Positions 3,380-17,834 of a stretch of 53,544 nucleotides of DNA are shown piece by piece; position 1 is the stretch's first letter, and every line of letters begins with the position of its first letter. Source of the DNA: Coriobacteriia bacterium (GTDB lineage Bacteria > Actinomycetota > Coriobacteriia > Anaerosomatales > Anaerosomataceae); NCBI GenBank assembly GCA_030655755.1, contig JAUSOQ010000072.1, forward strand, positions 1-53,544, in the 5' to 3' direction. The notes beneath the pieces were generated by a model that saw only the letters and a program-made list of their open reading frames with translations, had not been told where the DNA came from and searched no databases. Both the position numbers and the translations under genes were made by a program.

Positions 3380-4722
3380 CCTGTCGTCCAGTTGATGGCT
3401 TCAGACAGCGCCGGGTGTATGGCTCGCGTGGCTGCTATCTGTGCGATCGTCGATCCTGTGCGCACTGCAAGCGCGTACGTGTAGATGAGGTCGGATGCAT
3501 CGCGTCCCACGATGTGCGCACCCAAGACGGTCCCGTCCTCGGCGATGACCACTTTGATGAACCCGGTGCGCCTATCGGTGATGATCGCGGCGCCCACGTA
3601 CTCCAACGTGCCGCGCAACACGCGATGCACTATGCCGCGCTGTGTCGCCTGAGCCTCCGTAAGGCCCACTTGGGCCAGCTCTGGCACCGTGAAGCATGCG
3701 GAGGGTATAGCGCTGGTGTCGACCATCTGGGGTTGCCCTGTGATGATCGAACGGGCGACGTGGCTGCCATGTACGCTTGCGATCGGCGTGAGCATCGTAA
3801 GGCCGGTCGCATCTCCTGCGAACCAGACGCGCTGATTGGTGGAGCGTAGCGCGCTGTCGAGGGCCGGCCTGCCGTTGCGGTCGCGCTCGATCCCTGCCGC
3901 GTCGAGTCCAAGATCGTCGAGATTCGCCCGTCGCCCGGTCGCCATGAGTACACGTTGGGTCGGGAGATATCGTGGGACACCATCGTCGGCTGTGTACTCG
4001 ACGGTAAGATCGCCCGCCATACCGGTGATGCCGGTGACCGACGCGCCGCGGATGAAGACGGCGCCGAGTCGCTGTAGTTCGCCGATGGCGATGGCCACGG
4101 TCTCCTGGTCGAACGGTGTCAGGACGGTGTCGCGCACGAGCACCGTGACCGCGGTGCCGAACGACGCATAGATCCCGGCGAACTCCATCGCGATGTAGCC
4201 CGCGCCGATGATGACGAGCGACTCGGGAAGCTCCGGATAGCGGAGTGCGTCGTCGCTGATGTCGGCGAGCTCGGCGCCGGGTATCGGCGGGATGATCGCA
4301 TGCGAGCCGGTCGCCACGACGATGGCATCGGGTTCGTAGACGGTCTGTCCTGCGATGACCTCGGTACTGGAGAGGAAGCGAGCGGCCTCTGTAAGATGCC
4401 GGATGCCGCGAGACGCCATGAGGTCTTCCTGGTCTCCGGCGTAGGTCTCCTGGGAGTGCCACTTCCACGCCAGCACACTCGGCCAGTCAAGTTCGACACC
4501 GCTTGTCAGGACGCCGAACTCATCTGCGTGCTGCACGTCGCGGTAGGCCATCGCCGAGTTGAAGAGCGCCTTTTTGGGGATGCAGCCGTGCCAAAGACAC
4601 GTGCCGCCGACCTTGTCGGGTTCGGCGACCGCCACAGAGAGTCCCTCGGCTGCTACCGCGCGCGACGCGGCGTTTCCGGCAGTGCCGCCGCCGATCACGA
4701 AGACATCGATGTGTTCGGCCAT
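3376..4722 (-). CDS. Class I pyridine nucleotide-disulfide oxidoreductase (mercuric reductase/dihydrolipoamide dehydrogenase-like)
   Basis: This 448-residue flavoprotein has an N-terminal FAD motif GGGTAGNAAS (11-20) and a redox-active disulfide in GGTCLWHGCIPKKAL (C42 and C47). The NAD(P)-binding motif is GAGYIAMEFA (173-182), and the C-terminal dimerisation domain carries the catalytic His in HPALSEAINW. It transfers electrons from NAD(P)H to a disulfide or metal substrate. The spacing C-4-C matches dihydrolipoamide dehydrogenase, mercuric reductase and related enzymes; neither lipoyl-domain partners nor mer genes are nearby, so the substrate is unknown. The frame extends further upstream, but ATG 4722 follows GAGGAGG. 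It is divergent from the ABC-F gene and ends tail-to-tail with the secreted-protein gene through a shared CTAG. Confidence 0.85.
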   Translation of the reverse strand: MAEHIDVFVIGGGTAGNAASRAVAAEGLSVAVAEPDKVGGTCLWHGCIPKKALFNSAMAYRDVQHADEFGVLTSGVELDWPSVLAWKWHSQETYAGDQEDLMASRGIRHLTEAARFLSSTEVIAGQTVYEPDAIVVATGSHAIIPPIPGAELADISDDALRYPELPESLVIIGAGYIAMEFAGIYASFGTAVTVLVRDTVLTPFDQETVAIAIGELQRLGAVFIRGASVTGITGMAGDLTVEYTADDGVPRYLPTQRVLMATGRRANLDDLGLDAAGIERDRNGRPALDSALRSTNQRVWFAGDATGLTMLTPIASVHGSHVARSIITGQPQMVDTSAIPSACFTVPELAQVGLTEAQATQRGIVHRVLRGTLEYVGAAIITDRRTGFIKVVIAEDGTVLGAHIVGRDASDLIYTYALAVRTGSTIAQIAATRAIHPALSEAINWTTG

Positions 4723-4756
4723 GAGATGACCTCCTCGAGGTGTTAGACTGCTTGAC
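4723..4756. promoter_or_regulatory. 34-nt divergent start region with a palindromic Shine-Dalgarno core
   Basis: Only 34 nt separate the start codons of the oxidoreductase (minus) and ABC-F (plus) genes. The palindrome CCTCGAGG (4733-4740) supplies GAGG on both strands: part of GAGGAGG for the minus gene, GAGGTG on the plus strand. TAGACT at 4744-4749 sits 7 nt before the GTG at 4757, as expected for a -10 box of a leaderless transcript. On the minus strand, GATAAT (4765-4760) inside the ABC-F start could be the opposite -10 box. Confidence 0.4.
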
Positions 4757-6739
4757 GTGATTATCACCGCAGACCATGTTACGAAAACCTTTGGCGAACG
4801 CGTCCTGTTCAAGGATGCGTTCATTCGCGTTGGCGGTCGTGACCGCGTGGCGCTCGTCGGTCCCAACGGCGCCGGCAAGACGACCCTGCTCGAGATCTTG
4901 GCAGGGGAGCAGGACTGCGACGGCGGGCGCGTCATCACGCCCAAAGACGTCGTCATCGGCTATCTGCGCCAGGAAGCGATCGAGATGGCGGGCTCGACGG
5001 TGCTGGCCGAGGTGATGAGCGTGGCCTCCCATGTCACCTCGCTGGAACATCGCATCAGGGTGCTGGAGGAAGATATCGCCGTGACTCCGGAGGGCGAGGA
5101 GCTTGAGCGCCTGCTGGAGGAGTACGGTCGCTTGCGCGATCGGTTCGAGCACCTCGGCGGCTACACGCTCGAGTCTGATGCGCGTGCGGTGCTCATGGGT
5201 CTGGGCTTTAAAGAACGCGACCTTACGCGTGATACCGCCGAGTTCTCCGGCGGGTGGCTCATGCGTATCGCCATGGCCAAGTTGCTGCTCCAGCAGCCTG
5301 ACCTGCTGCTGCTGGACGAACCCACCAACCACCTCGATCTAGAGTCGGTCACCTGGCTTGAAGGATTCCTGCGCGGTTATGACGGCGGGATCATCCTGGT
5401 GAGCCACGACCGTGCGTTCATGGACGGTTTCGTGGACCATGTCGCCGAGATCGACCAGCGCAGACTCACTGTCTACAAGGGCAACTACGAGCAGTACCTC
5501 GCCGCCAGGGAGCTGGCGCTTGAGCAGTTGAAGGCGGCTTTCGTCCAACAGCAGCGCAAGATCGCTGACACGCAGCAATTCATCGAACGTTTCCGCTACA
5601 AGCAGACCAAAGCCAAGCAGGTCCAGAGCCGGGTGAAGATGCTCGAGAAGATAGAGATCATCGAGCTGCCCGAAGAGCGCAAGACCGTTCGCTTCGCGTT
5701 CCCGCAGCCGGAGCGTACAGGTGAAGAGGTCATATGTCTGGAGGGCGTGCGCAAGGCCTACGGCGACCTTGTCGTCTACAAAGGCCTCGACTTCACTCTT
5801 TATCGCGGAGATAAGATCGCCCTGGTAGGCCCTAACGGCGCCGGGAAGTCCACGCTGCTCAAGATGCTTGCGGGCGTTTTAGATCCCGACGCAGGGACAC
5901 GTCGTCTCGGCCATAAGGTCACCGTGTCCTACTTCGCGCAGCACCAGCTCGAGGCCCTTGACGGTCGCAACACGGTGCTTGCCGAGCTGGACTCAGCAGC
6001 TCCCGGTTGGACGCAGCAGGAGGCGCGGCGTCTTCTCGGCGCGTTCCTGTTCCATGGCGACGACGTTCAGAAGAAGGTACGTGTGCTCTCGGGTGGCGAG
6101 CGGGGACGGCTCGCGCTTGCCAAGATGCTCGTGCATCCGGCGTCGTTCCTGTGCCTGGACGAGCCCACCAATCACCTGGATATCGCGTCGAGTGACGTGC
6201 TCGAGCAGGCGTTGCGGGCCTACAGCGGCACACTTGCGCTCATCACCCATGACCGGCATCTCATCCGTGCGATCGCGACCAAGATCGTCGAGGTCGCAGA
6301 CGGCGGGGTGACCTTCTACGACGGCGACTACGACTACTATCTGTTCAAGCGCGAGCAGATGGCCGCGGCGGGGGAGAGTACAGCCCGGGCCGTAAAGGCG
6401 GATGTGCCTCCCGCGCGCGGTCAAGATCCGGTGAAGACGGTCGTTTCAGGTCCCAAGACCAAAGAGCAGAAACGTGTCGAAGCAGAAGTTCGCAACCGAC
6501 TGTATCGTGTGGGCAAGGACGCGAAGTTGCGAGAGAAAGACGCCGAGAAGGCGCTGGCCGAGGCGCACGCCCGGCATGACCGGTTGCTTGCTGAACTCGC
6601 TGAACCGGAGATGTACGCTGACAACAGGCACTTTGTCGAGATGATGACGGCGTATAGCGAGGTCAAACAGGCGCTGCCAAGACTCGAGGAGGCCTGGTTG
6701 GCCGCTGTGGAGGAGCTGGAACGACTCGCTGAAGAGTGA
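4757..6739 (+). CDS. ABC-F family ATPase (Uup/YheS-type)
   Basis: The 660-residue protein carries two ABC ATPase domains and no membrane segments, as in ribosome-associated ABC-F factors. Walker A motifs are GPNGAGKT near residues 35-42 and GPNGAGKS near 358. Signature sequences are FSGGW near 162 and LSGGERGR near 445, and Walker [10 protein letters not shown] occurs in both domains. The interdomain linker has the typical charged [19 protein letters not shown] stretch. After residue 540 a charged C-terminal extension is predicted to form a coiled coil, as in Uup. The first signature has Trp where Glu is usual. GTG 4757 fits the family start MI[10 protein letters not shown]. It may be translated from a leaderless mRNA. 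A role in translation or resistance is a family-level inference. Confidence 0.92.
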
Positions 6740-6838: not shown

Positions 6839-7207
6839 GTGCAGTTTGCGTCTTCAGACAGCGTTCTGTTCGTGCTGGGGTTGGCTGCTGGTCCGGTCAT
6901 CGTACTGCTCATTCTCTTCGGCGTGAGTCGGCTCCTTGCGCCGCGTTCTCCAAGTGGGGCCAAGAACACCGCCTACGAGTGCGGGATCCCGCAGCAGGGA
7001 TCGCCATGGCGACCAGTCAACCTGCGGTTCTCCACGATCGCGCTACTCTTCGTGATCTTTGACGCAGAGACAGTCCTACTGTTCGCTGTGGCTCCCGGTG
7101 TGAGGGGCTCGGTGATCGGCGCAATCGAGGTCGGCTCCTTCGTCTTCTTCCTGAGCTTCGGTCTTTACTACGCATGGCGGAAGGGAGCCCTACGGTGGCC
7201 CTCGTAG
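6839..7207 (+). CDS. nuoA: NADH-quinone oxidoreductase subunit A
   Basis: This 122-residue membrane subunit of complex I lies next to NuoH at the quinone-site end of the membrane arm. Three transmembrane segments are visible near residues 8-30, 60-82 and 90-112. The conserved YECGIPQQG loop and FDAETVLLF helix identify NuoA. It starts with GTG 6839, behind GGGGGGCGA. It is the first gene of the nuo operon and directly follows the operator and promoter. It overlaps nuoB by 13 nt. Confidence 0.92.
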   Translation: MQFASSDSVLFVLGLAAGPVIVLLILFGVSRLLAPRSPSGAKNTAYECGIPQQGSPWRPVNLRFSTIALLFVIFDAETVLLFAVAPGVRGSVIGAIEVGSFVFFLSFGLYYAWRKGALRWPS

Positions 7208-7788
7208 ACGACCTCGGCAAGGCGCTCGATCGCTCTCCGGGCGGGAGCATCATCCTCACGAGTGTGGACGCGATCTTGGACTGGTCGCGCGGCAAGTCGC
7301 TCTGGACGATGCCCATGGGCACGGCGTGTTGTGCCATGGAACTGATCGCTGCGTCGTTCTCGAAGTTCGATTTCGACCGGCACGGGACGATCCCGCGTCC
7401 TGACCCTCGGCACACCGACGTCATGGTGGTGGCAGGCACGATCACCCATAAGATGGCTCCCGCAGTGAAACTCCTCTACGCGCAGATGCCGGAACCGAAG
7501 TGGGTCATCGCGATGGGTAACTGCGCGATCTCTGGCGGTATCTTCTACTACGACACGTACTCTGTGGTTCGCGGCGTCGACGAGTTCTTGCCGGTGGACG
7601 TCTACATCGCCGGATGTCCGCCACGACCGGAGGCGCTGCAAGACGCCATCTTCCAGCTGCGCAAGAAAGTCGCGGGTGAGTCGATCGCATCTGGACGCGA
7701 GCGCAAGGTGGAGTATCTACTTCCCCGGCCTGAGGATCCCCGTAAGGGTGACCTCGCCGCTGAGGCCGAAGACGGTGAGGACCGGTGA
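7195..7788 (+). CDS. nuoB: NADH-quinone oxidoreductase subunit B
   Basis: The product has 197 residues and is the connecting subunit that holds cluster N2, the last Fe-S centre before quinone. All ligands are present: the tandem Cys pair in GTACCAMEL, one Cys in GNCAISGG and one in AGCPPRPEAL. ATG 7174 is possible, but GTG 7195 is preferred because GGAAGGGAG sits about 8 nt upstream, whereas ATG 7174 has no ribosome-binding site. The C-terminus is acidic and extends beyond the core. It overlaps nuoA by 13 nt and nuoC by 4 nt, implying translational coupling. N2 should receive electrons from the NuoI position, here a fusion protein. Confidence 0.93.
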   Translation: MALVDDLGKALDRSPGGSIILTSVDAILDWSRGKSLWTMPMGTACCAMELIAASFSKFDFDRHGTIPRPDPRHTDVMVVAGTITHKMAPAVKLLYAQMPEPKWVIAMGNCAISGGIFYYDTYSVVRGVDEFLPVDVYIAGCPPRPEALQDAIFQLRKKVAGESIASGRERKVEYLLPRPEDPRKGDLAAEAEDGEDR

Positions 7789-8246
7789 ACATCAACAAGC
7801 TGCGCGAGCACCTCTGCGCTACGTACCCGGATCTCTGCCCGCTGTTCTCGATCGAGTTCGGTGATGGGTCGCTGACGGTTGCGCCCGAGCGTCTGCACTC
7901 GGCCGCTTCGGACATGCGTGACTTGGGATTCGACTTTCTCGGCATGGTGACCGCTGTGGATCGCGGCGAGACTTTTGAACTCGTCTATCGGATCCAGTCG
8001 CGAAAGATGAGCGCAGGGATCTTCCTGAAGGCCTATGTCTCACGAGAAGAGCCGTATATCTCGTCTGTCTACGATCTGTGGCCTGCCGCCGACTGGCAGG
8101 AGCGCGAGGTCTACGACATGTTCGGCATCATCTTTGAAGGCCATCCAGATCTCCGTCGCATCCTGCTCACGGACGACTGGGTAGGCTACCCGCTCAGAAA
8201 AGACTACGAAGACGAGCGGATGATCCGCCGTCCCGACTACATCTAG
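7785..8246 (+). CDS. nuoC: NADH-quinone oxidoreductase subunit C
   Basis: The 153-residue protein is a peripheral-arm scaffold subunit (30-kDa family) that docks NuoD. The diagnostic segment EREVYDMFGIIFEGHPDLRR with the following ILLTDDWVGYPLRKDYE lies in the C-terminal third. It is a stand-alone NuoC, not fused to NuoD. GTG 7785 overlaps the nuoB stop in GTGA. nuoD follows with an AGGAGG that itself overlaps the nuoC stop codon. Confidence 0.93.
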   Translation: MNINKLREHLCATYPDLCPLFSIEFGDGSLTVAPERLHSAASDMRDLGFDFLGMVTAVDRGETFELVYRIQSRKMSAGIFLKAYVSREEPYISSVYDLWPAADWQEREVYDMFGIIFEGHPDLRRILLTDDWVGYPLRKDYEDERMIRRPDYI

Positions 8247-8258
8247 GAGGTGTGTGCT

Positions 8259-9353
8259 TTGTCTGAAGAGCTCGTTGTCAACATAGGTCCGGCGCACCCC
8301 TCCACACACGGGGTGTGCCGCGTCATCGTCACACTCGACGGTGAGGTCGTACGGCACTCCGAGGTCGTTATCGGCCACCTGCATCGCGGCATCGAGAAGA
8401 TGGCCGAGAACAGAACCTACCTGCAGATCGTGCCGCTGACCGACCGTCTGGACTACGTCGGCTCGATGTATGCCAACTGGGCGTACTGCCGCGCGGTCGA
8501 GCGGCTCGCCGGTATTCGCGTGCCGGAGCGTGCCGAGTACATCCGCGTGATCGTGTGCGAATTGCAGCGGATCGCAAGCCACATGATGTCGGTCGGGCCC
8601 GCAGGCGCCGACACGGGAGCGACCAGCGTGTTCATGTACACGTTCAATCAGCGCGAGCAGGTCGTCGATCTGTTCGAGCAGCTGTGCGGCGCGCGTCTGA
8701 CCTACAACTATGTACGCCCGGGCGGCGTGTCGATGGACACACCCGTTGGTTGGGCCGACAACGTGCGTGCCTTCTGTCGCACGCATCCCGCAGCCATGGC
8801 CGAGGTCGATCGGCTGCTCTTCGGCAACGTGATCGCACGTCAGCGCATGAAGGGTATCGGGGTGCTGTCAGCGCCAGACGCGGTCGCATGGGGAGCATCG
8901 GGGCCTGTCGCCCGCGGTTCGGGCGTGAGCTGGGACCTTCGCCGGGATAGCGCCTACAGCATCTACCCGCGTCTGGATTTCGACGTGCCGGTCGGGTCGA
9001 ACGGTGACTGCTACGATCGTGCACGGGTCCGCCTGTGGGAGTGCATCGAGAGCTGCCATATCATCGAGCAGGCGCTCGATCAGATGGAGCCCGGTCCGGT
9101 GATGGCCGAGGCCGTCCCGCGGCTGCTCGCACCGCCTCCCGGAGAAGCCTACGACCACATCGAGAGCGCGCGCGGTTCTCTCGGCGTCTATCTGGTGTCT
9201 GACGGTACGCCGCGGCCGTATCGCATGAAGGTGCGCTCACCGGCGTTTTGCAACCTCGCGCTGCTTCCCAAGCTGGCCGAAGGGCATACGCTGTCCGATC
9301 TTATCGTGATCTTAGGTTCGCTTGACCCCGTCTTCGGGGAGGTGGACCGGTGA
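8259..9353 (+). CDS. nuoD: NADH-quinone oxidoreductase subunit D
   Basis: The 364-residue product is the 49-kDa-type subunit, homologous to [NiFe]-hydrogenase large subunits, forming the quinone-binding pocket with NuoB and NuoH. The N-terminus NIGPAHPSTHGV, RGIEKMAENRTYLQIVPLTDRLDY and the C-terminal ending GSLDPVFGEVDR are all typical. The hydrogenase nickel-binding cysteines are absent, as expected for a complex I subunit. The TTG at 8259 is chosen because AGGAGG (8245-8250) lies 8 nt upstream; the GTG at 8250 is overlapped by that ribosome-binding site. It overlaps nuoH by 4 nt. Confidence 0.92.
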   Translation: MSEELVVNIGPAHPSTHGVCRVIVTLDGEVVRHSEVVIGHLHRGIEKMAENRTYLQIVPLTDRLDYVGSMYANWAYCRAVERLAGIRVPERAEYIRVIVCELQRIASHMMSVGPAGADTGATSVFMYTFNQREQVVDLFEQLCGARLTYNYVRPGGVSMDTPVGWADNVRAFCRTHPAAMAEVDRLLFGNVIARQRMKGIGVLSAPDAVAWGASGPVARGSGVSWDLRRDSAYSIYPRLDFDVPVGSNGDCYDRARVRLWECIESCHIIEQALDQMEPGPVMAEAVPRLLAPPPGEAYDHIESARGSLGVYLVSDGTPRPYRMKVRSPAFCNLALLPKLAEGHTLSDLIVILGSLDPVFGEVDR

Positions 9354-10297
9354 GCTTTTTGTGGGGAGTCGTATGGGGTGTCGCGGCGGTGCTCGTGGTC
9401 GCGGTCGGCGCGATCATCGGCGTGTGGTGGGAGCGTAAGGTCGCCGCCCGCATCCAGTTGCGCCTCGGGCCGCAGCAGATCGGGCCCGCAGGCTCGCTGC
9501 AGATGGTCGCCGACGTACTCAAGCTGCTCGTGAAAGAAGACATCGTGCCCGACGCTTCCGACGAACCGTTCTTCCGCTACGCGCCGCTCGCGGTCTTCGC
9601 CCCGGTGGCTATGTCGATCGCGGTGATCCCGTTTGCGGCCGGTTGGGCGCCGTTCGATGCGAGCGTCGGGGTGTTCTTCTTCCTTGCTGTTCCGTCGATC
9701 GGTGTACTCGGCATCCTCTTTTCGGCATGGGCGTCGCACAACACCTTGTCTGCGCTCGGCGGTGTTCGCGCTGCCGCGCAGATGGTCAGCTATGAAGTAC
9801 CCAGGTCACTGTCGGTGCTCTCGGTGCTTGTCCTTGCGGGCACACTTCGACCGGTCGGCGTGATGGACGCATGGCAGTGGTGGTGGATACCGGCGACGTT
9901 CGTCGGCTTCATCGTCTACCTGATCTCATCGATCGCCGAGATGAACCGCGGGCCCTTCGACATCCCCGAGGCGGAGTCAGAACTCGTCGCCGGGTACTTC
10001 GCCGACTACGCCGGGATCCGGTGGGCCGTGTTCATGATGGGTGAGTACGGCGCGATGATCTCGGCCAGTCTGTTTGGCGCGGCAATGTTCCTGGGTGGCT
10101 ATCACCTGCTACCCGGGGCGCTGGGCATCGTCGCGTTCATTGCGGTAGCCTCGCTGCTCATGACCGTGATCATGTGGGTGAAGTGGACGCTGCCGCGGAT
10201 GCGCCAGGACCAGCTGATGGAGTTCTGTTGGAAGATGCTCACACCGATCGCGCTCGTTCAGCTTCTCGTCGCGGGGGTGATCGCTGCATGGCTGTAG
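9350..10297 (+). CDS. nuoH: NADH-quinone oxidoreductase subunit H
   Basis: This 315-residue membrane subunit with about eight transmembrane helices connects the peripheral arm to the proton-pumping arm and forms part of the quinone channel. Characteristic sequences are GVWWERKVAARIQLRLGPQQ near residues 24-43, ADVLKLLVKEDIVP, and the loop EMNRGPFDIPEAESELVAGY. GTG 9350 overlaps the nuoD stop in GTGA. The 3' end overlaps the nuoI-like fusion gene by 10 nt. The length is normal. Confidence 0.94.
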   Translation: MSFLWGVVWGVAAVLVVAVGAIIGVWWERKVAARIQLRLGPQQIGPAGSLQMVADVLKLLVKEDIVPDASDEPFFRYAPLAVFAPVAMSIAVIPFAAGWAPFDASVGVFFFLAVPSIGVLGILFSAWASHNTLSALGGVRAAAQMVSYEVPRSLSVLSVLVLAGTLRPVGVMDAWQWWWIPATFVGFIVYLISSIAEMNRGPFDIPEAESELVAGYFADYAGIRWAVFMMGEYGAMISASLFGAAMFLGGYHLLPGALGIVAFIAVASLLMTVIMWVKWTLPRMRQDQLMEFCWKMLTPIALVQLLVAGVIAAWL

Positions 10298-12342
10298 AAC
10301 GCGACAGACTCAAGGTGCCCGAGTCGGTATCTGACGAGTATGCTCCCGGCGTGAAGGGCTTTTTCCAGGGTGCGCTCTCCGTGTTGACCGGCCTCGGTAT
10401 CACCGCCAGAGCCGCGACCCGCACACCGACGACTGTGCGATATCCTGACGAGAAACTGACACTCAGTGATCGTTGGCGCGGACCGCTATACCTGCGTGGG
10501 GCGTTGGGTCGGGATTCGATAGATATCATCTCGGCGCCACCGGACGAGTACAACGGCGTGATCGACGAGCTGTATCGCACTGAGCGCCTTTCGCCGTGCA
10601 TAGGTAACTGCCCCGCGAACGTGGATGCTCGTGGCCAGGCCTTCCTGATCGCCGATGACCGGGTGCCCGAGGCCTATGAGCTTGTTCGCGAGCGCAACAT
10701 CTTGCCGGGCGTGCTCGGCCGCATCTGTCACCACCCGTGTGAGACCGCGTGCCGCCGCACTCGCTACGATGAACCGATCTCGATCCGGCCGTTGCACCGC
10801 TTTGCGTACGAGGAGTATCGCAAGGTGGCGTCCGAACGGATCAAGCCGCTGCCGCAGACGCGCGGCAAGCGAGTCGCGATCGTCGGCGCCGGACCCTCCG
10901 GCCTGACCGCGGCCCACGATCTGATGCGTCTGGGTTACACCGTGACGATGTATGAGGGGGAGTCTAAGCCGGGGGGCGCGCTGTCTACCGGCGTGCCGTC
11001 ATACCGCCTTCCGCGTGACGTGCTCTACAACGAGATCGACAACATCGTCGCAATGGGACTGGATCTGCATTGCGGTGTGAAAGTCGGCAAGGACGTCATG
11101 CTCGCCGATATCATGCGTGACAACGATGCAGTGTTGGTGGCGGTCGGCTTGCAGCAGAGCCGCATCCTGCCGCTGCCAGGCACCGACGCGGAAGGTGTCA
11201 TCGGGGCGCTGGAGTTTTTGTGGGCCGCCAACAACCTCGGCGAGGCAGGGGTCGCAGGTAAGCGAGTCCTCGTCATCGGTGGCGGCAACGTGGCCGTTGA
11301 CGTTGCGCGTTGCGCGTTGCGCGTAGGTGCTTCAGAAGTGAAGCTGGCGTGCCTTGAGGGCGATAACGAGATGCCGTGCCATCCGTGGGAGATCGAGGAG
11401 GCCATCGATGAAGGTGTCATCGCGATGTGCTCGCTTGGTCCCGTGGAGGTGCTGAGTAGCGAGAACAAGGTCACCGGGATGCGGATGCGGCCCTGTCTGT
11501 CGGTGTTCGATGAGTCCGGCCGCTTCTCGCCGACCTACGGTGAAGAGATGACCGACATCGAGACCGACGTCGTCGTGTTCTCCATAGGTCAGGCCGCCGT
11601 GCTCGATGATCTTGTGAGTGGTACGGCGCTGCTCGTCTCGGGCAGAGGCCAGCTGGTCGTCGATAGTACGGACTTCACGACATCGGCGCCGGGAGTCTTC
11701 GCGTGCGGGGAGGTCGTCACCGGTCCCGGGAGCGCTATCGGGTCGATCGCGACAGGGCACGAGGCTGCAACTTCGGTCCACCGCTATCTTGAAGGACAGT
11801 CGTTGACCGAGGGTCGCGTTCCGCGACCGGTACCGGTTCTCGAGAAATATGGTCCGGTTGATTTCGATTACGTTGAGCCGGAGCGGCGTAGAGCGGTCAT
11901 CGAGCTCGCCGATCCCGAGGAGCGGGTCACTGATTTTCGGGTGGTCGAGCCGGGACTCACGCGAGAGCAGGCTATGGCCGAGGCCATGCGCTGCTTGCGA
12001 TGCGAGTCCGAGGTCTGTGTGGGTTGCACGTTCTGTGCGCGGGTGTGTCCGGACTATGCGATCAAGGTGGAGCGCAGCGACGAACCGGGTGCGCGTTGCC
12101 TTACCACGTACGAACTCGATCTCACCAAGTGCTGCTTCTGTGGTCTCTGTGCCGAGCAGTGCCCCACCGGTGCACTGCAGCACAGCGGCCAGTACGAGCT
12201 GTCTTTCTACCATCGCGAGCTGATGGTCTTCGACAAGGGAGAGATGTTGCGCGACGGGGGCGGGACGCGTTCAACTGGTCGTGACGGCATCACATCGCCG
12301 GCGTGCCCGGCGCCGCCACGCAAAGCGGGGGAGGCGTCATGA
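10288..12342 (+). CDS. NuoI-GltD fusion: complex I ferredoxin subunit with an inserted Fe-S flavoprotein oxidoreductase
   Basis: The uninterrupted 684-residue frame occupies the nuoI position. Residues about 20-66 match the NuoI N-terminus (GFFQGALSVLTGLGITARAA, YPDEK, RWRG). Residues about 100-545 form a complete GltD/NfnB-like module: Fe-S cysteines C104/C108 and C147/C151/C155, FAD motif GAGPSGLTAAHDL (200-212), NAD(P) motif GGGNVAVDVAR (331-341) and the second FAD site FACGEVVTGPGSA (471-483). After C569/C572 come the two NuoI [4Fe-4S] motifs, C577-C580-C583-C587 and C615-C618-C621-C625, and the NuoI-type ending YELSFYHRELMVFDKGEML. NuoI normally has about 150-200 residues. The paired arginines binding NADPH in relatives are replaced by LE (356-357), which favours NADH (inference). 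ATG 10288 overlaps nuoH by 10 nt and the stop overlaps nuoJ. It is probably the electron-entry subunit, since nuoEFG are absent here. Confidence 0.88.
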   Translation: MAVERDRLKVPESVSDEYAPGVKGFFQGALSVLTGLGITARAATRTPTTVRYPDEKLTLSDRWRGPLYLRGALGRDSIDIISAPPDEYNGVIDELYRTERLSPCIGNCPANVDARGQAFLIADDRVPEAYELVRERNILPGVLGRICHHPCETACRRTRYDEPISIRPLHRFAYEEYRKVASERIKPLPQTRGKRVAIVGAGPSGLTAAHDLMRLGYTVTMYEGESKPGGALSTGVPSYRLPRDVLYNEIDNIVAMGLDLHCGVKVGKDVMLADIMRDNDAVLVAVGLQQSRILPLPGTDAEGVIGALEFLWAANNLGEAGVAGKRVLVIGGGNVAVDVARCALRVGASEVKLACLEGDNEMPCHPWEIEEAIDEGVIAMCSLGPVEVLSSENKVTGMRMRPCLSVFDESGRFSPTYGEEMTDIETDVVVFSIGQAAVLDDLVSGTALLVSGRGQLVVDSTDFTTSAPGVFACGEVVTGPGSAIGSIATGHEAATSVHRYLEGQSLTEGRVPRPVPVLEKYGPVDFDYVEPERRRAVIELADPEERVTDFRVVEPGLTREQAMAEAMRCLRCESEVCVGCTFCARVCPDYAIKVERSDEPGARCLTTYELDLTKCCFCGLCAEQCPTGALQHSGQYELSFYHRELMVFDKGEMLRDGGGTRSTGRDGITSPACPAPPRKAGEAS

Positions 12343-12833
12343 GCGCGACTGTTGCATACGTGTTCGCACTGCTACTCCTCCTCGGGGGGGCGGTCGGCGT
12401 GATGTTGTGCCGTGAGGCGCTGCGTCTCACCCTCGCATTCGGTGTCTTCCTGCTCGGCGTCGCTGCCTGCTTTCTCTACTTCGGTCTCGCTTTTCTCGCT
12501 GTGGCGGAAGTCTTCGTCTACGTCGGTGGCGTGCTGATACTCGTGCTCTTCGCGCTGATGATCGTGCGTCGTGCCGACGAAGACCGGGTGCTGATGGACA
12601 TCCGCTTCGACTGGGGGTCGGCTACCACCGCGATCGGAGTAGCGATCCTGATCATGATGATGTTGTGGTCCGAGTTCGATGTGCTCGTGCCGCCCACAGG
12701 AACTTCCGATCCCGCTGCACTGGCCGCAACACTTTTGGGCCACTATCTGGTGCCCTTTGAGATCGTAGGCGGTCTGCTGCTCGTCGCGGTGCTCGCCGTC
12801 CTGGCCATCGTGGGCAAGGAGGACGGACGATGA
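12339..12833 (+). CDS. nuoJ: NADH-quinone oxidoreductase subunit J
   Basis: The 164-residue integral membrane protein has five predicted transmembrane helices. The segment LAVAEVFVYVGGVLILVLFALM is the conserved NuoJ helix 3, which carries the pi-bulge involved in the conformational coupling of quinone reduction to proton pumping. ATG 12339 overlaps the fusion-gene stop in ATGA and follows GGGGGAGG. An earlier in-frame ATG at 12303 lies within the fusion gene and lacks a ribosome-binding site. It overlaps nuoK by 4 nt. Confidence 0.88.
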   Translation: MSATVAYVFALLLLLGGAVGVMLCREALRLTLAFGVFLLGVAACFLYFGLAFLAVAEVFVYVGGVLILVLFALMIVRRADEDRVLMDIRFDWGSATTAIGVAILIMMMLWSEFDVLVPPTGTSDPAALAATLLGHYLVPFEIVGGLLLVAVLAVLAIVGKEDGR

Positions 12834-13126
12834 GCATGCTGGTCGCGTGTTCGGTCGTGTTCGGTATCGGTCTGTTCGTGGTGCTCTCGCGTCGGGATAT
12901 CATCGCCCTGCTGATCGGTCTCGAACTGATGTTGGGTTCTGCCAACGTCTTGCTGGTCGCGCTTTCGACCTTGAACGGTCATGACCCGGCGACGACTCAG
13001 TCGGTCGGTGTGATGGTCCTTGTCTTGGCCGCGGCTGAGGCCGCGCTCGGGCTCGCGCTTCTCATCGCGTCGGTGCGCCGCACCGGGCGTTCGCGTGTCG
13101 AGGAGTTCGAGGAGGTGACCGGCTGA
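12830..13126 (+). CDS. nuoK: NADH-quinone oxidoreductase subunit K
   Basis: This 98-residue, three-helix MrpC-like membrane subunit has the conserved buried glutamate in ALLIGLELMLGSANV and a second in AAAEAALGLAL, both part of the proton path. ATG 12830 overlaps nuoJ by 4 nt (ATGA), and the stop shares one base with the nuoL ATG. Length and hydropathy match the family. Confidence 0.92.
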   Translation: MSMLVACSVVFGIGLFVVLSRRDIIALLIGLELMLGSANVLLVALSTLNGHDPATTQSVGVMVLVLAAAEAALGLALLIASVRRTGRSRVEEFEEVTG

Positions 13127-14946
13127 TGTCGATATTGGTGCAACAGCCGTGGATCGCCGTACTCGTCCCCGCGACGCTGGCGTTCGTCATCGCCCTCGGG
13201 GGACGTCGCGCGGTCCCGTTGACGCGCTGGCTTGCGCTGGTCGGCCCCCTTACGGTTCTTGCGACGGGCGTGGCGGGGCTTGCAGGCGCAGGATCCGATC
13301 CTGCGATAGTGAGTGTGTCCTGGCTCGCGCAGGGCGCCCGGTCCATCGCAGTGGGCGCGTCGGTCGATGCGCTTGCTGCCGTGATGCTCACGGTCGTGGG
13401 TGTCGTCTCGGCGATGGTCGTGCTCTTCTCGGTCGGATACATGGCCGAGGACCCCGCGCAGGCTCGCTACTTCGCGTTGGTCTCTGTTTTCAGCGCAGCG
13501 ATGACCGGGCTTGTGATCTCCACTACGCTGGTCGGTCTGTTCGCCGCGTGGGAACTCGTGGGCGCGTGTAGCTATCTGCTCATCGGCTTCTGGTACCGCA
13601 AACCCGCTGCGGCGAACGCCGCGATGAAAGCGTTCATCGTGACGCGTATCGGTGACGTCGGCTTCCTGCTGGGCATCGCGCTTTTGTGGGCGAACGCGGG
13701 TACGGCGGACATCGCCACAGTGAACACTGCGGTGGGTACGCTTCCGGTCGCCGTCGCTACACTGGCGGCGCTCATGCTCTTCGCCGGAGCGGCGGGCAAG
13801 TCGGCGCAGTTCCCTCTGCACATCTGGTTGCCCGAGGCGATGGAAGGTCCTACGCCGGTCTCGGCACTGATCCACGCGGCGACGATGGTTGCCGCAGGCG
13901 TCTTCCTGGTAGCCCGGATGTGGCCGGTGTTCGCCGCGTCGGAGATCGCGTTGCAGGTCATGTTGTGGGTCGGGCTCATCACGGCGCTCGGCGCCGCGAT
14001 GGCTGCCATCGCGCAGCGCGACATCAAGCGTGTCCTTGCCTACTCGACGATAAGCCAGCTCGGCTTCATGTTCGTGGCGCTCGGCGCCGGACAGTGGCAG
14101 ATCGCCATCTTCCACCTGGTGACGCACGCTGCCTTCAAAGCGCTGCTCTTCCTCGGCTCCGGCAGTGTGATCCACTCGGCCGGGACGCAAGACCTGCACG
14201 AGATGGGCGGACTGGGTCGCGTGATGCCGGTGACGATGGTGACCTGGGTGCTGGGCGCAGGAGCGCTTGCGGGCATTCCGCCGTTGGCGGGCTTTTTCTC
14301 CAAAGACGGCATCATCCACGCGGCGTGGGTCGCCTCGCCGGTCGCCGGTGCGGTGCTCGTGCTGGCGAGCCTGATGACGGCGTTCTACATCACGCGAGCG
14401 ACGCTTCTGGCGTTCGCGGGCGACTTCCGAGGGCAAGGACATCCTCACGAGTCGCCGTGGACCATGACGCTACCGCTGATGGTGCTTGCCGCAGGCGCGG
14501 TGGGACTGGGGTTTGCGGGAGGCTCGCTTGCAGAACTGCTCGGCGGGCATGGTGCGCTGGAGCCGGTCGTCGCGATCGTGTCGGCGCTGGTGGCTCTCAC
14601 AGGCGTTGCCGTGGGCTGGTCGTTCTACCGGCGGGGTCCGTCCGCGGACACGGTACTTGAAACACGTCTGGGAGCCGTATACCCCACTGCCGCCAATGCA
14701 TTCGGCGTTGATGCGCTGCTCACGAGACTGTTCGTGCGACCTGCCAGGTCTTTCGCCGAGAAGGTCTATGACGCGATCGACCGGAGGCTTATCGATGGCG
14801 CGGTCAACGGCGTCGGGAAGCTGGCGGTGGGCGCGGGGCGTTTGGCGGCCGGGCTCCAGACCGGTCAGATCGACCTGGCGGCGGCGATGGTGGGTGCGGG
14901 TATCGTGTTTTTGACCGCGCTCGTCATCGGTTGGGGAGGGAGGTAG
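13126..14946 (+). CDS. nuoL: NADH-quinone oxidoreductase subunit L
   Basis: The 606-residue antiporter-like subunit lies at the distal end of the membrane arm. The pump signature GKSAQFPLHIWLPEAMEGPT, followed by PVSALIHAATMV, is near residues 225-255, and AFKALLFLGSGSVIH near 335. The length and the C-terminal extension, which includes the lateral helix running along the membrane arm, match full-length NuoL. It starts at ATG 13126, overlapping nuoK by one base, and is followed by nuoM with 2 nt between. The long minus-strand frame inside it is a composition shadow. Confidence 0.94.
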   Translation: MSILVQQPWIAVLVPATLAFVIALGGRRAVPLTRWLALVGPLTVLATGVAGLAGAGSDPAIVSVSWLAQGARSIAVGASVDALAAVMLTVVGVVSAMVVLFSVGYMAEDPAQARYFALVSVFSAAMTGLVISTTLVGLFAAWELVGACSYLLIGFWYRKPAAANAAMKAFIVTRIGDVGFLLGIALLWANAGTADIATVNTAVGTLPVAVATLAALMLFAGAAGKSAQFPLHIWLPEAMEGPTPVSALIHAATMVAAGVFLVARMWPVFAASEIALQVMLWVGLITALGAAMAAIAQRDIKRVLAYSTISQLGFMFVALGAGQWQIAIFHLVTHAAFKALLFLGSGSVIHSAGTQDLHEMGGLGRVMPVTMVTWVLGAGALAGIPPLAGFFSKDGIIHAAWVASPVAGAVLVLASLMTAFYITRATLLAFAGDFRGQGHPHESPWTMTLPLMVLAAGAVGLGFAGGSLAELLGGHGALEPVVAIVSALVALTGVAVGWSFYRRGPSADTVLETRLGAVYPTAANAFGVDALLTRLFVRPARSFAEKVYDAIDRRLIDGAVNGVGKLAVGAGRLAAGLQTGQIDLAAAMVGAGIVFLTALVIGWGGR

Positions 14947-14948
14947 GC

Positions 14949-16394
14949 ATGAACGTACTACTTCCCATCGCGATACCGCTTACAGGTGCGCTCGTTGTCG
15001 CCCTCGCCGGACGTGGAGAGTCGGGAGGCGCGCGACGAGTGTCGGCGATGTTCGCGTTCGCGACATTCGCCGTGACCGTCTACCTGGCTTTCGCGTGGAA
15101 TGCCGAAGGTGGGGAGTGCATCAGGTGGGTCATCAGCAGTGCTCAGGGTCTGGGAGTGTTGAGCCTTGCGGTTGACGGTCTGTCGTTGCCACTCGTCGTG
15201 CTCACCGGGTTCCTCGGCCTGATCGCCGTTCTCACCTCGTGGGAGGTACACGAGCACGCTGCCGCACATCATGCGCTGTTGCTTTGCCTTGAGGCGGCCG
15301 TCATGACCGTCTTCTTGGCGGACAACGTCATCCTCTTCTACGTCGCATGGGAAGCCGTGCTCATCCCGATGTTCTTCCTGATCTCGGTGTGGGGTCACGA
15401 GAACCGACGTGCTGCCGCGTTCAAGTTCTTCATCTACACGTTCGCAGGCTCGGCGCTGATGCTCGTGGGCATCATCACGCTCCTTGTGTCATCGCCATTG
15501 GGATCGCTGGCCGGAGGAGTGACTGCGATCTCAGCGGACAAGCAGACGCTCGTGTTCTGGCTGCTTGCGGCGGGGCTGCTTGTCAAGGTGCCGGTGGTAC
15601 CGTTGCATACATGGCTGCCCGACGCGCACGTGGAAGCTCCGACAGCGGGCTCGATCATGCTCGCAGGCGTCTTGCTGAAGATGGGAGGCTATGGTCTGCT
15701 GCGCATAGCGCTTCCCGTCGCACCTGATGCGTTCGCGGCTGCCGGACCCGTTCTGGCGGTGCTGGGCGGTATCGGTATCGTGTACGGAGCGATACTCGCC
15801 CTCGGTCAGCGGGATCTCAAACGGTTGGTCGCGTACTCGTCGGTCGCTCATATGGGCTTCATGTTGCTCGCGATGTCGACCGGCACCCGGCTCGGTATCG
15901 GTGCTGCGATGCTTATCATGGTGAGCCATGGTGTGGTCTCCGGTCTGCTGTTCTTCTTAGTGGGCGCGATCTACGATCGCACGCATACGCGTGAGATATC
16001 GCGTTTCGGCGGTCTGATATCGCAGATACCTGTGTGGGGCGGGGTGTTCGTCTTCGGAGCGCTTGCGAGCCTCGGGCTTCCCGGTCTGTCGGGCTTCCCG
16101 GGCGAACTCCTGAGCGTGCTGGAGGGGTTCGGGAGATTCGGCTGGTGGATCGCGCCGATCGGTGTGGGCGTCATTCTCGGCGCTGCGTACAACCTGTACG
16201 CCGTGCGTGCAGTCGCACACGGTGAGCCATCGGCCGAGTGGCAGGGGATATCTGACCTGGGTGTGCGTGAGCGGTTGATCGCTGCATCGTTCGTGGTGTG
16301 CATCGTCGGTCTGGGTCTGTGGCCGGGGACGGTGTTGTCGGTGACCGATGCGGCGAGCCGCGTCCTTTCGATGGCTTTGGGAGGCGGGCAGTAG
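14949..16394 (+). CDS. nuoM: NADH-quinone oxidoreductase subunit M
   Basis: The 481-residue antiporter-like proton-pumping subunit has about 14 transmembrane helices. The conserved pump region reads LVKVPVVPLHTWLPDAHVEA then PTAGSIMLAGVLLKMGGYG, and FYVAWEAVLIPMF contains the key helix-5 glutamate. ATG 14949 is selected, with GGGAGG 7 nt upstream at the end of nuoL; an upstream in-frame TTG lies within nuoL. nuoN starts immediately after the stop codon. Confidence 0.94.
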   Translation: MNVLLPIAIPLTGALVVALAGRGESGGARRVSAMFAFATFAVTVYLAFAWNAEGGECIRWVISSAQGLGVLSLAVDGLSLPLVVLTGFLGLIAVLTSWEVHEHAAAHHALLLCLEAAVMTVFLADNVILFYVAWEAVLIPMFFLISVWGHENRRAAAFKFFIYTFAGSALMLVGIITLLVSSPLGSLAGGVTAISADKQTLVFWLLAAGLLVKVPVVPLHTWLPDAHVEAPTAGSIMLAGVLLKMGGYGLLRIALPVAPDAFAAAGPVLAVLGGIGIVYGAILALGQRDLKRLVAYSSVAHMGFMLLAMSTGTRLGIGAAMLIMVSHGVVSGLLFFLVGAIYDRTHTREISRFGGLISQIPVWGGVFVFGALASLGLPGLSGFPGELLSVLEGFGRFGWWIAPIGVGVILGAAYNLYAVRAVAHGEPSAEWQGISDLGVRERLIAASFVVCIVGLGLWPGTVLSVTDAASRVLSMALGGGQ

Positions 16395-17834
16395 ATGGAG
16401 TTCGTGACCCCCACCGTGCTTTGGATCCCCGGAGCGGTCGTGCTGATCGGTGTCGTTGTCGGTCTGGCAGCCGAGGCTGCTAAGCACCGGGCTTTAGGTG
16501 TCGGTGTTATCGCTGTCGCCCTGATGGTCGCGGCGGTCGTGTGCGCATGGTCTGCGGTGAAGGTCTCGATAAGTCCCGCGTTCGGTTGGATGTTCCTCGG
16601 CGGGGGAGGCTTCTCCACAGTAGCGAGCGTGGTCTACCTGCTCGCGGGACTATCGGTGGCTTCAGGATGGCGTCGGGCGATTTCCACGTCTCGTGGCGGA
16701 ACGGTGGCGGGTATCACTGCGCTGAGTGCCGTCGCGATCCAGTTGCTTACGTCCACATTAGATCTTCTGCCCGCGATCCTTGCGCTCGAGGTCGTTGCGC
16801 TTGCGGGGTATGCCTTGGTGTCCGCTGCGGCGAGTCGACGTTCGGATGAGGCCGCGCTGCGCTACTTCGTGCAAGGTGGCGTGGCTGCGGGTTTCACGGT
16901 CTTGGGTCTCGCGGTCATATACGGCGTGTACGGCACGACTGGTTACGTCCGATTGTTTGAGATCGTTGACGGTGGATCGCGTGCTGCTGCGTTCGGGATG
17001 GTGCTCGTGCTTGCCGCCTTCGCGTTCAAGCTTGGCGCCGTGCCCTTCCACTCCTGGGCTCCCGACGTCTACGAGACTGCGGACGCTTCTGTGGCCGGAT
17101 TCTTGGCCTCTGCGCCCAAGATCGGCGCCTTGATGGCGCTGCTGCTGCTGTTTCCCGCCGGCATGTTCAACGAAGGTCGTTTCCCTACAGCGACCCTTGC
17201 GATCGCGGTCATGGCTGCAGCATCGATAATCTTGGGGAATCTCGGCGCGCTGCGACAGAGCTCACTTGGCCGGATGCTCGGCTACTCCGGGATCGCGCAG
17301 GTTGGATATGGACTCATCGGACTTGCTGCGGGAGTGACCGGCTATCAGGCGACGGCGCTGTTCGCCCTCACCTACGCCGTGGGTGTCGCTACCGCGTTCT
17401 TCGTGGCCGAGGCAGTGCGTGAACGACGTCCCGGGTGGGACGGCAGCATCGGGGGGTTGTCGGGTCTCGCCGCTGAGGCTCCGTTCCTGGCGGCGGCGAT
17501 GGTGGCCGCGCTGCTGTCACTTACCGGTATACCGCTGCTGATCGGGTTCTGGGGCAAGCTGTTCGTGTTCGTTGCAGCGGTGTCCGCTGATCTGACCTGG
17601 CTTGCGGTCATCGGTGTGATCGGGTCGGTCGTGTCCTTCGGCTACTACGGAGCCGTGATCCGCTCGATGTACACGCGTGGAGTGGAGACAGAAGAGAACA
17701 TCCCGGCGGGAACACGTTTCTCGGGTCGCGTTGCTTGTGCGGTAGCGTTGGTCGCGGGTCTCATCGTTGTTGTCGGTGGAGTCGGTCCGCTGATAGCGGG
17801 TCTGGATGTGATCTCCAGACTACTCGTGTTCTAA
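16395..17834 (+). CDS. nuoN: NADH-quinone oxidoreductase subunit N
   Basis: The 479-residue third antiporter-like subunit closes the operon. Typical sequence includes AFKLGAVPFHSWAPDVYETA around residue 215, LGRMLGYSGIAQVGYGLIGL around 293, and ALLSLTGIPLLIGFWGKLFVF around 375. ATG 16395 abuts the nuoM stop. No terminator follows; the FlgM-like gene begins 47 nt later. With nuoA, H, J, K, L and M this completes the membrane arm of complex I. Confidence 0.93.
   Translation: MEFVTPTVLWIPGAVVLIGVVVGLAAEAAKHRALGVGVIAVALMVAAVVCAWSAVKVSISPAFGWMFLGGGGFSTVASVVYLLAGLSVASGWRRAISTSRGGTVAGITALSAVAIQLLTSTLDLLPAILALEVVALAGYALVSAAASRRSDEAALRYFVQGGVAAGFTVLGLAVIYGVYGTTGYVRLFEIVDGGSRAAAFGMVLVLAAFAFKLGAVPFHSWAPDVYETADASVAGFLASAPKIGALMALLLLFPAGMFNEGRFPTATLAIAVMAAASIILGNLGALRQSSLGRMLGYSGIAQVGYGLIGLAAGVTGYQATALFALTYAVGVATAFFVAEAVRERRPGWDGSIGGLSGLAAEAPFLAAAMVAALLSLTGIPLLIGFWGKLFVFVAAVSADLTWLAVIGVIGSVVSFGYYGAVIRSMYTRGVETEENIPAGTRFSGRVACAVALVAGLIVVVGGVGPLIAGLDVISRLLVF

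Follow-up and report, generated by a model that had tools for sequence, protein, structure and literature searches.

A NuoI subunit split by a GltD-like flavoprotein: a predicted NAD(P)H input module built into an 11-subunit complex I of Anaerosomatales

The electron source of complex I-like enzymes that lack NuoEFG is an open question, and the term docking platforms has been applied to these enzymes (PMC11238625). An attempt to find a donor common to them is reported to have failed (Moparthi and Hagerhall 2011, as cited in PMC11238625). In the 11-subunit complex I of Desulfitobacterium hafniense the donor is an unknown separate protein (PMC11238625). A precedent for another type of electron entry is StnC of the Sporomusa Stn transhydrogenase, in which electrons from NADPH reach a NuoG-type domain by way of two clusters (PMC10482914). 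Here we describe a gene of a Coriobacteriia bacterium of the order Anaerosomatales in which a flavoprotein of the same fold as StnC, of the NAD(P)H-using type, is covalently inserted into NuoI. The gene lies in a 53,544-nt stretch of DNA (contig JAUSOQ010000072.1, forward strand), which was analyzed as a whole and is called the window; all coordinates below are those of the window. Its product is probably a functional NuoI through which an 11-subunit complex I has an NAD(P)H input module of its own, in place of NuoEFG. An input module alternative to NuoEFG also exists in the complex I-like enzymes of archaea, where FpoF/FqoF is the input subunit for F420H2; FpoF/FqoF, in contrast, is a separate F420-specific subunit of another family and is not inserted in FpoI. 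No description of a NuoI-GltD fusion was found in the open-licence papers searched.

The fused gene (10288 to 12342, plus strand) is a single open frame of 684 codons, which begins with the ATG at 10288 and ends with the TGA at 12340-12342. The nuoH stop and its start overlap by 10 bases, and the ATG of nuoJ overlaps its stop as ATGA, which bears out the uninterrupted gene at the nuoI position of the original prediction. The NuoI model TIGR01971 (NCBIfam; curated cut-off 113.05) matches the protein with 93.6 bits in two separate stretches, the best of which covers residues 573-652. When residues 74-573 are left out, the two matches merge into one and gain 19 bits: a single stretch then spans positions 1-120 of the 121 of the profile with 112.6 bits, against the cut-off of 113.05. 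This result indicates that residues 35-73 are a genuine NuoI N-terminus and that the insert sits between the YPxE...RWRG segment and the first cluster-binding cysteine of NuoI. As judged by the profile, the break in NuoI thus falls where its N-terminal part gives way to the dicluster domain, and both the NuoI-like N-terminus from about residue 20 and the insertion point between the N-terminal helix and the ferredoxin fold were recognized correctly at the outset.

All parts of the protein that had been expected, Fer4_20, Pyr_redox_2, Fer4-type and NuoI, are matched by their models; the features listed here are all on the plus strand. The N-terminal part of NuoI (residues 20-72; 10345 to 10503), defined by TIGR01971 without the insert and by the model helix, consists of an amphipathic helix (residues 22-44) and the YPDEK...DRWRG segment. 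The insert opens with a Fer4_20 domain (residues 103-179; 10594 to 10824; PF14691, 2.5e-17), in which C104, C108, C147, C151, C155 and H170 are predicted cluster ligands. It is followed by the double Rossmann part for FAD and NAD(P) (residues 195-490; 10870 to 11757; Pyr_redox_2, PF07992, 2.4e-24), with the conserved motifs GxGxxG at 200-205, GGGNVA at 331-336 and an acidic CLE at 355-357. Behind the FAD domain, the invariant cysteines of CLRC (residues 569-572; 11992 to 12003) are predicted ligands of the outer cluster of the insert. The dicluster domain of NuoI (residues 573-660; 12004 to 12267) contains CxxCxxCxxxCP at 577-587 and at 615-625, for N6a and N6b, and is recognized by TIGR01971, by other NuoI models and by Fer4_7 (577-629; 6.4e-8). 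It includes the C-terminal strand of NuoI, YELSFYHRELMVFDK, according to the NuoI models. In phmmer searches of the PDB, the C-terminal part aligns with NuoI/TYKY chains of many complex I structures (for example 2fug_9, 3.4e-19) and residues 97-625 align with StnC and with large subunits of NfnABC. The protein therefore ends, as proposed, with both [4Fe-4S] motifs and the C-terminus of NuoI, and all the NuoI hallmarks are present (N-terminal helix, YP...RG, two CxxCxxCxxxCP, C-terminal YEL...Y strand). The limits of the flavoprotein had been placed at about residues 100 and 545. The start stands, and the end moves to about 572 because the RCLRC motif (568-572) belongs to the insert.

The insert had been labelled a complete GltD/NfnB-type flavoprotein. 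It is indeed a GltD-like flavoprotein, with Fer4_20 and the FAD and NAD(P) Rossmann motifs, and the label proved loose: it is nearer to StnC, the NfnABC large subunit and PRK12771-type proteins than to NfnB or GltD themselves. NfnB/NfnL and GltD share the Fer4_20 domain and the FAD/NAD(P) fold (Z 28-31), whereas their outer-cluster CxxC lies ahead of the domain instead of behind the FAD part, and NfnB and GltD use a glutamate ligand where H or K is found here. A structure model computed by AlphaFold2 with 27 close sequences had a poor NuoI part (pLDDT 68.5); the model with 54 sequences was good (pLDDT 86, pTM 0.84) and was used. It contains the helix 22-44, at lower confidence, and matches StnC and the NfnABC large subunits (9bov_A, 8oh5_C, 9n5u_A) with Z 39-40 over 460 residues, the value for 9bov_A being 40.4. 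NuoI chains were not among the 50 structure matches listed, in which the GltD-like domain dominates, and this is no argument against the NuoI fold. StnC and NfnABC have the same ligand positions, including RCLxC behind the FAD part, and in StnC the GltD-like module is likewise fused to a complex I-type subunit, NuoG. They differ from the fused protein in being soluble transhydrogenases joined to NuoG-type rather than NuoI-type domains, in having K170 where this order has H170, and in having the NADPH-type YRR instead of CLE. The PRK12771-type family (NF009410; a GltD-like part followed by ferredoxin clusters) scores higher than any other family against the whole protein, with 458 bits, and its domains follow one another as they do here, from Fer4_20 through to the C-terminal clusters; the fused protein nevertheless falls below the 516-bit cut-off, and PRK12771-type proteins are soluble and have neither the N- nor the C-terminus of NuoI. 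A further match, at 10567-12198, is to PRK13984 'putative oxidoreductase' (NF010590), a named but uncharacterized family. In its model, too, a Fer4 part resembling NuoI (about 22-115) is combined with a GltD-like part (about 188-609), but in the opposite order, with the GltD-like part appended behind the ferredoxin part and not inserted, and the score is 350 bits against a cut-off of 946.

The ligands for two [4Fe-4S] clusters occupy eight positions in the insert. Seven of them (C104, C108, C147, C151, C155, C569 and C572) are invariant in 54 aligned sequences of fused proteins and paralogues, and C569 and C572 are also invariant in all 35 fused proteins compared. The eighth position, residue 170, is H, K or E: all 26 members of the window's group have H, the other two groups of fused proteins have K, and the paralogues have either K or E. 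Dihydropyrimidine dehydrogenase binds its two N-terminal clusters through C79, C82, C87 and C140 and through C91, C130, C136 and Q156. By analogy with this enzyme, the cluster near the FAD would be bound by C108, C147, C151 and H170, and the outer cluster by C104, C155, C569 and C572, the last pair lying behind the FAD domain rather than before it. The counterpart of residue 170 is a glutamate in NfnB and K170 in StnC, where exchange for A or C severely reduces the activity (PMC10482914). C572 is five positions from C577, the first ligand of the NuoI dicluster, so that the outer cluster of the insert must be near the first NuoI cluster, if both form. The position of invariant C569 and C572 directly ahead of C577 supports the proposed placement of a flavin and nicotinamide module near the N6 clusters.

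Both nucleotide-binding motifs, GxGxxG for FAD and GGGNxA for NAD(P), are preserved in the fused proteins, with at most one departure each among those compared. After the second Rossmann strand, all 26 members of the window's group have LE (20 of them CLE) at the position of RR in NADPH-using relatives; YRR is retained in the two other fused groups. An acidic residue in place of the arginines is expected of an NADH-specific enzyme, and the replacement of YRR by CLE suggests that NADH is the more likely donor in this order, and NADPH in the two YRR groups. R240, the counterpart of the FAD arginine of NfnB (R201) and StnC (R239), is invariant. This arginine, the fold and two clusters shared with NfnB, and the ferredoxin-based metabolism of the anaerobic hosts would all suit a module that bifurcates or confurcates as the FAD of NfnB does, coupling NAD(P)H, ferredoxin and quinone. 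NADH and reduced ferredoxin might, for example, be oxidized together, or NADH and quinone might drive ferredoxin reduction. StnC, however, has the same arginine and is non-bifurcating (PMC10482914), so R240 does not decide. Moreover, the ligand near the FAD is H or K (here H170), not the E of NfnB, and no gene for an NfnA-type partner, with the second flavin, is seen in the window's cluster. Such coupling is unlikely.

The fused gene is embedded in the order nuoA-B-C-D-H-[fused gene]-J-K-L-M-N (6839-17834, plus strand), and no nuoE, nuoF or nuoG is present in this cluster. These are the same subunits as in the 11-subunit complex I of D. hafniense, which likewise has no nuoEFG (PMC11238625), and the N2 and quinone-site motifs are present. 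The neighbours match their NCBIfam models, several above the curated cut-off: nuoA (6839-7207), nuoB (7174-7788, above cut-off), nuoC (7785-8246; TIGR01961, above cut-off), nuoD (8250-9353; PRK06075, above cut-off) and nuoH (9350-10297, above cut-off) upstream, and nuoJ (12339-12833), nuoK (12830-13126), nuoL (13126-14946, above cut-off), nuoM (14931-16394, above cut-off) and nuoN (16395-17834) downstream. NuoB has the N2-type cysteine pattern GTACC...GNC...GCPPRP, and NuoD keeps the quinone-site His and Tyr in the motifs HPSTHG and TYLQ; both were also aligned to PDB chains, in the case of NuoD those of NDUFS2. A hydrogenase-type complex was considered and rejected, as NuoD has no [NiFe] cysteine motifs.

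The genome from which the window comes is without NuoEFG for the nuo complex. Its only NuoF-like genes are RnfC (contig C41) and one HydB/FdhB-type gene, which clusters with genes for CO dehydrogenase/acetyl-CoA synthase (CODH/ACS) and methylene-tetrahydrofolate (THF) reductase; the same CODH/ACS cluster contains the sole NuoG-type Fe-S domain found in the genome. Complex1_51K had no match in eight relatives, six of which carry the fused gene. The menaquinone-synthesis genes ubiX, mqnP-like and mqnL-like are present in the window's genome (4540-7587 of locus L183, contig C36). Contig C76 of this genome also encodes a GltD-like/Fer4 protein with an FlpD/MvhD-like tail (3961-5952 of locus L137) in a CODH/ACS and methylene-THF reductase cluster, near NuoF-like and molybdopterin genes; it probably belongs to a reductase complex of the Wood-Ljungdahl pathway. 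In a metagenome-assembled genome (MAG) of the same order, in which part of the fused gene is present as well, a nuoBCD fragment adjoins a NuoF-like gene (locus L180, contig C217 of genome G029), representing either a second, canonical complex I or contamination.

Eleven-subunit complexes are usually thought to be fed by ferredoxin (PMC9686372; PMC11238625), and GltD-type proteins work with ferredoxin in Nfn (PMC10482914). A previous study of Anaerosomatales noted the lack of NuoEFG, listed NuoI as an ordinary subunit and proposed ferredoxin as the donor (PMC9686372). The order as a whole carries the fused gene. In the case of ferredoxin input, reduced ferredoxin would dock by the outer cluster, and the flavin part would work in the reverse direction, reducing NAD(P)+, or serve as an overflow. 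Flavin and nicotinamide sites would not be needed for such input, yet the fused proteins have preserved both motifs, and such a module was recruited on at least two occasions; furthermore, Rnf is already present in the genome for ferredoxin:NAD+. Ferredoxin input is distinctly unlikely.

The distribution of the fused gene was surveyed in several sets of genomes. The one scan of genome contigs used exact peptides of the window protein; distant fused forms are beyond the reach of such a scan, and the picture outside Actinomycetota is thus provisional. In a set made up of the window's genome and 60 close relatives, 53 of the 61 have a long match, with 60-81% identity in the relatives, which are independent assemblies. 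Relatives that bear a name are the assembly EMTCatB1 and MAGs entitled Anaerosomatales, Coriobacteriia or Actinobacteria bacterium. In a sample of the class (298 genomes), the fused gene is present in 60 of the 69 genomes of the same order (Anaerosomatales/OPB41) and in none of the 229 others. Full-length fused proteins with about 36-50% identity were found in 14 genomes outside the class in a phylum-wide sample of 296 Actinomycetota. One MAG of Elusimicrobiota (UBA5214, locus L059) has a fused protein with 48% identity, and none was found in 247 other sampled genomes of that phylum. The architecture thus recurs across the order, and every fused gene that was checked lies in a nuo cluster. In two rearranged clusters the fused gene stays with the genes of the hydrophilic subunits: in L135, nuoBCD-fusion and nuoA-H-J-K-L-N lie on opposite strands, and L136 has the order nuoB-C-D-fusion-A-H-J-K. 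The genome of L135 (G735/G589) has two complex I clusters, the other of which, L171, has a plain NuoI. In Elusimicrobiota, six large antiporter-type genes (NuoL/M/N or Mrp-like) surround the fused gene (L059, 146-17736), which exceeds the needs of complex I; the surplus genes possibly encode extra ion-translocating units.

Broken forms of the gene do occur in assemblies. At 794-2643 of L063, from Actinomycetota, a break between Fer4_20 and the FAD part divides the fused protein into two frames, through a sequencing error or a real split. A joining of two genes by frameshift or misassembly in the window, one of the two refuting conditions named with the original prediction, is nevertheless refuted by full-length, in-frame conservation in dozens of independent assemblies from three sequence groups and by low dN/dS, which make it practically impossible. 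Comparisons with five orthologues gave dN/dS values of 0.10-0.18 for the insert and 0.07-0.17 for the C-terminal part of NuoI. Purifying selection thus acts on both, and a pseudogene was considered and rejected. A redox-dead insert with a structural or assembly role would have a parallel in the FdhF-like domain of StnC, which stabilizes the complex and transfers no electrons (PMC10482914). In the fused proteins, however, the FAD and NAD(P) glycine motifs and the cluster ligands are invariant or nearly so, the most diverged members included, and the low dN/dS extends over the insert, so that a purely structural role is very improbable.

The reading of the fused protein as a NuoI with a built-in NAD(P)H input module is favoured because of the domain matches on both sides of the insert, its conservation, the intact redox residues and the lack of an N-module for this complex, and because the N2 and quinone-site motifs are preserved in NuoB and NuoD and menaquinone genes are present in the genome. 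A continuous wire from FAD through two [4Fe-4S] clusters, N6a/N6b and N2 to quinone is likely from the arrangement of these residues. NAD(P)H, with NADH as the likelier donor in this order, would bind to the insert and transfer a hydride to the FAD. Single electrons would then pass from the FAD to the cluster near it (C108, C147, C151, H170), to the outer cluster (C104, C155, C569, C572), to N6a and N6b in the NuoI part, and from there to N2 in NuoB and to quinone, probably menaquinone, while the membrane subunits would pump protons as in complex I. Several observations weigh against this reading. Nine of the 69 genomes of the order, some of them nearly complete assemblies, gave no match, and two cultured Anaerosomatales were reported to be without detectable quinones (PMC9686372). 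The donor is deduced from one motif, and CLE also occurs in soluble paralogues of unknown specificity. In addition, the dicluster and the tail are only moderately confident in the model.

The origin of the insert was studied in a quick tree of 52 rows and a careful tree of 34 rows of the inserted domain, the rows being few and partly long-branched. In these trees the fused proteins are not one group. The window's group (the order, L059, L177, L178 and L135) joins soluble actinobacterial GltD-Fer4 paralogues (support 97/97), and L129-L134 and L136/L175/L176 fall among mostly YRR-type proteins (100/97). A single origin of all inserts was rejected (p-AU 1.3e-8); a shared origin for pairs of groups was not clearly rejected (0.05 and 0.17). 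The tree of NuoI places the NuoI parts within the NuoI family. All of them, together with two plain NuoI (L169 and L170), form one group against the other actinobacterial NuoI (98/98), and the fused proteins alone were rejected as a clade (p 0.013). With the hydrogenase-type outgroup L172 the deep branches of this tree are weak, and without it the fused group is well supported. The two plain NuoI (7839-8342 of L169 and 7319-7795 of L170) nest among the fused ones, and in them the RGAP segment runs straight into the dicluster; they have either lost the insert or are pre-insertion forms. Taken together, the two trees indicate that in one NuoI lineage, and at the same site, GltD-like modules were gained at least twice or swapped in place; by their sequences, the modules recruited or exchanged would include both NADH-like and NADPH-like motifs. 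It is conceivable, if doubtful, that the NuoI loop before the first N6 ligand is a socket for independently plugged-in NADH- and NADPH-type modules, the FAD of which bifurcates or confurcates in some hosts, so that complex I itself would couple nicotinamide, ferredoxin and quinone.

We infer that this complex I is a novel variant, whose input module is both built in and replaceable. An unrelated flavoprotein would thus be able to take the place of the N-module, as seems to have happened more than once at one site, with a likely switch between NADH and NADPH. With the donor module as part of the wire itself, and with cultured members in the order, the question of the donor becomes directly testable. 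The published metabolic models of these bacteria assume ferredoxin input and may need to be changed. In these little-known underground bacteria, the insert probably stands in for the missing standard electron-entry arm of complex I.

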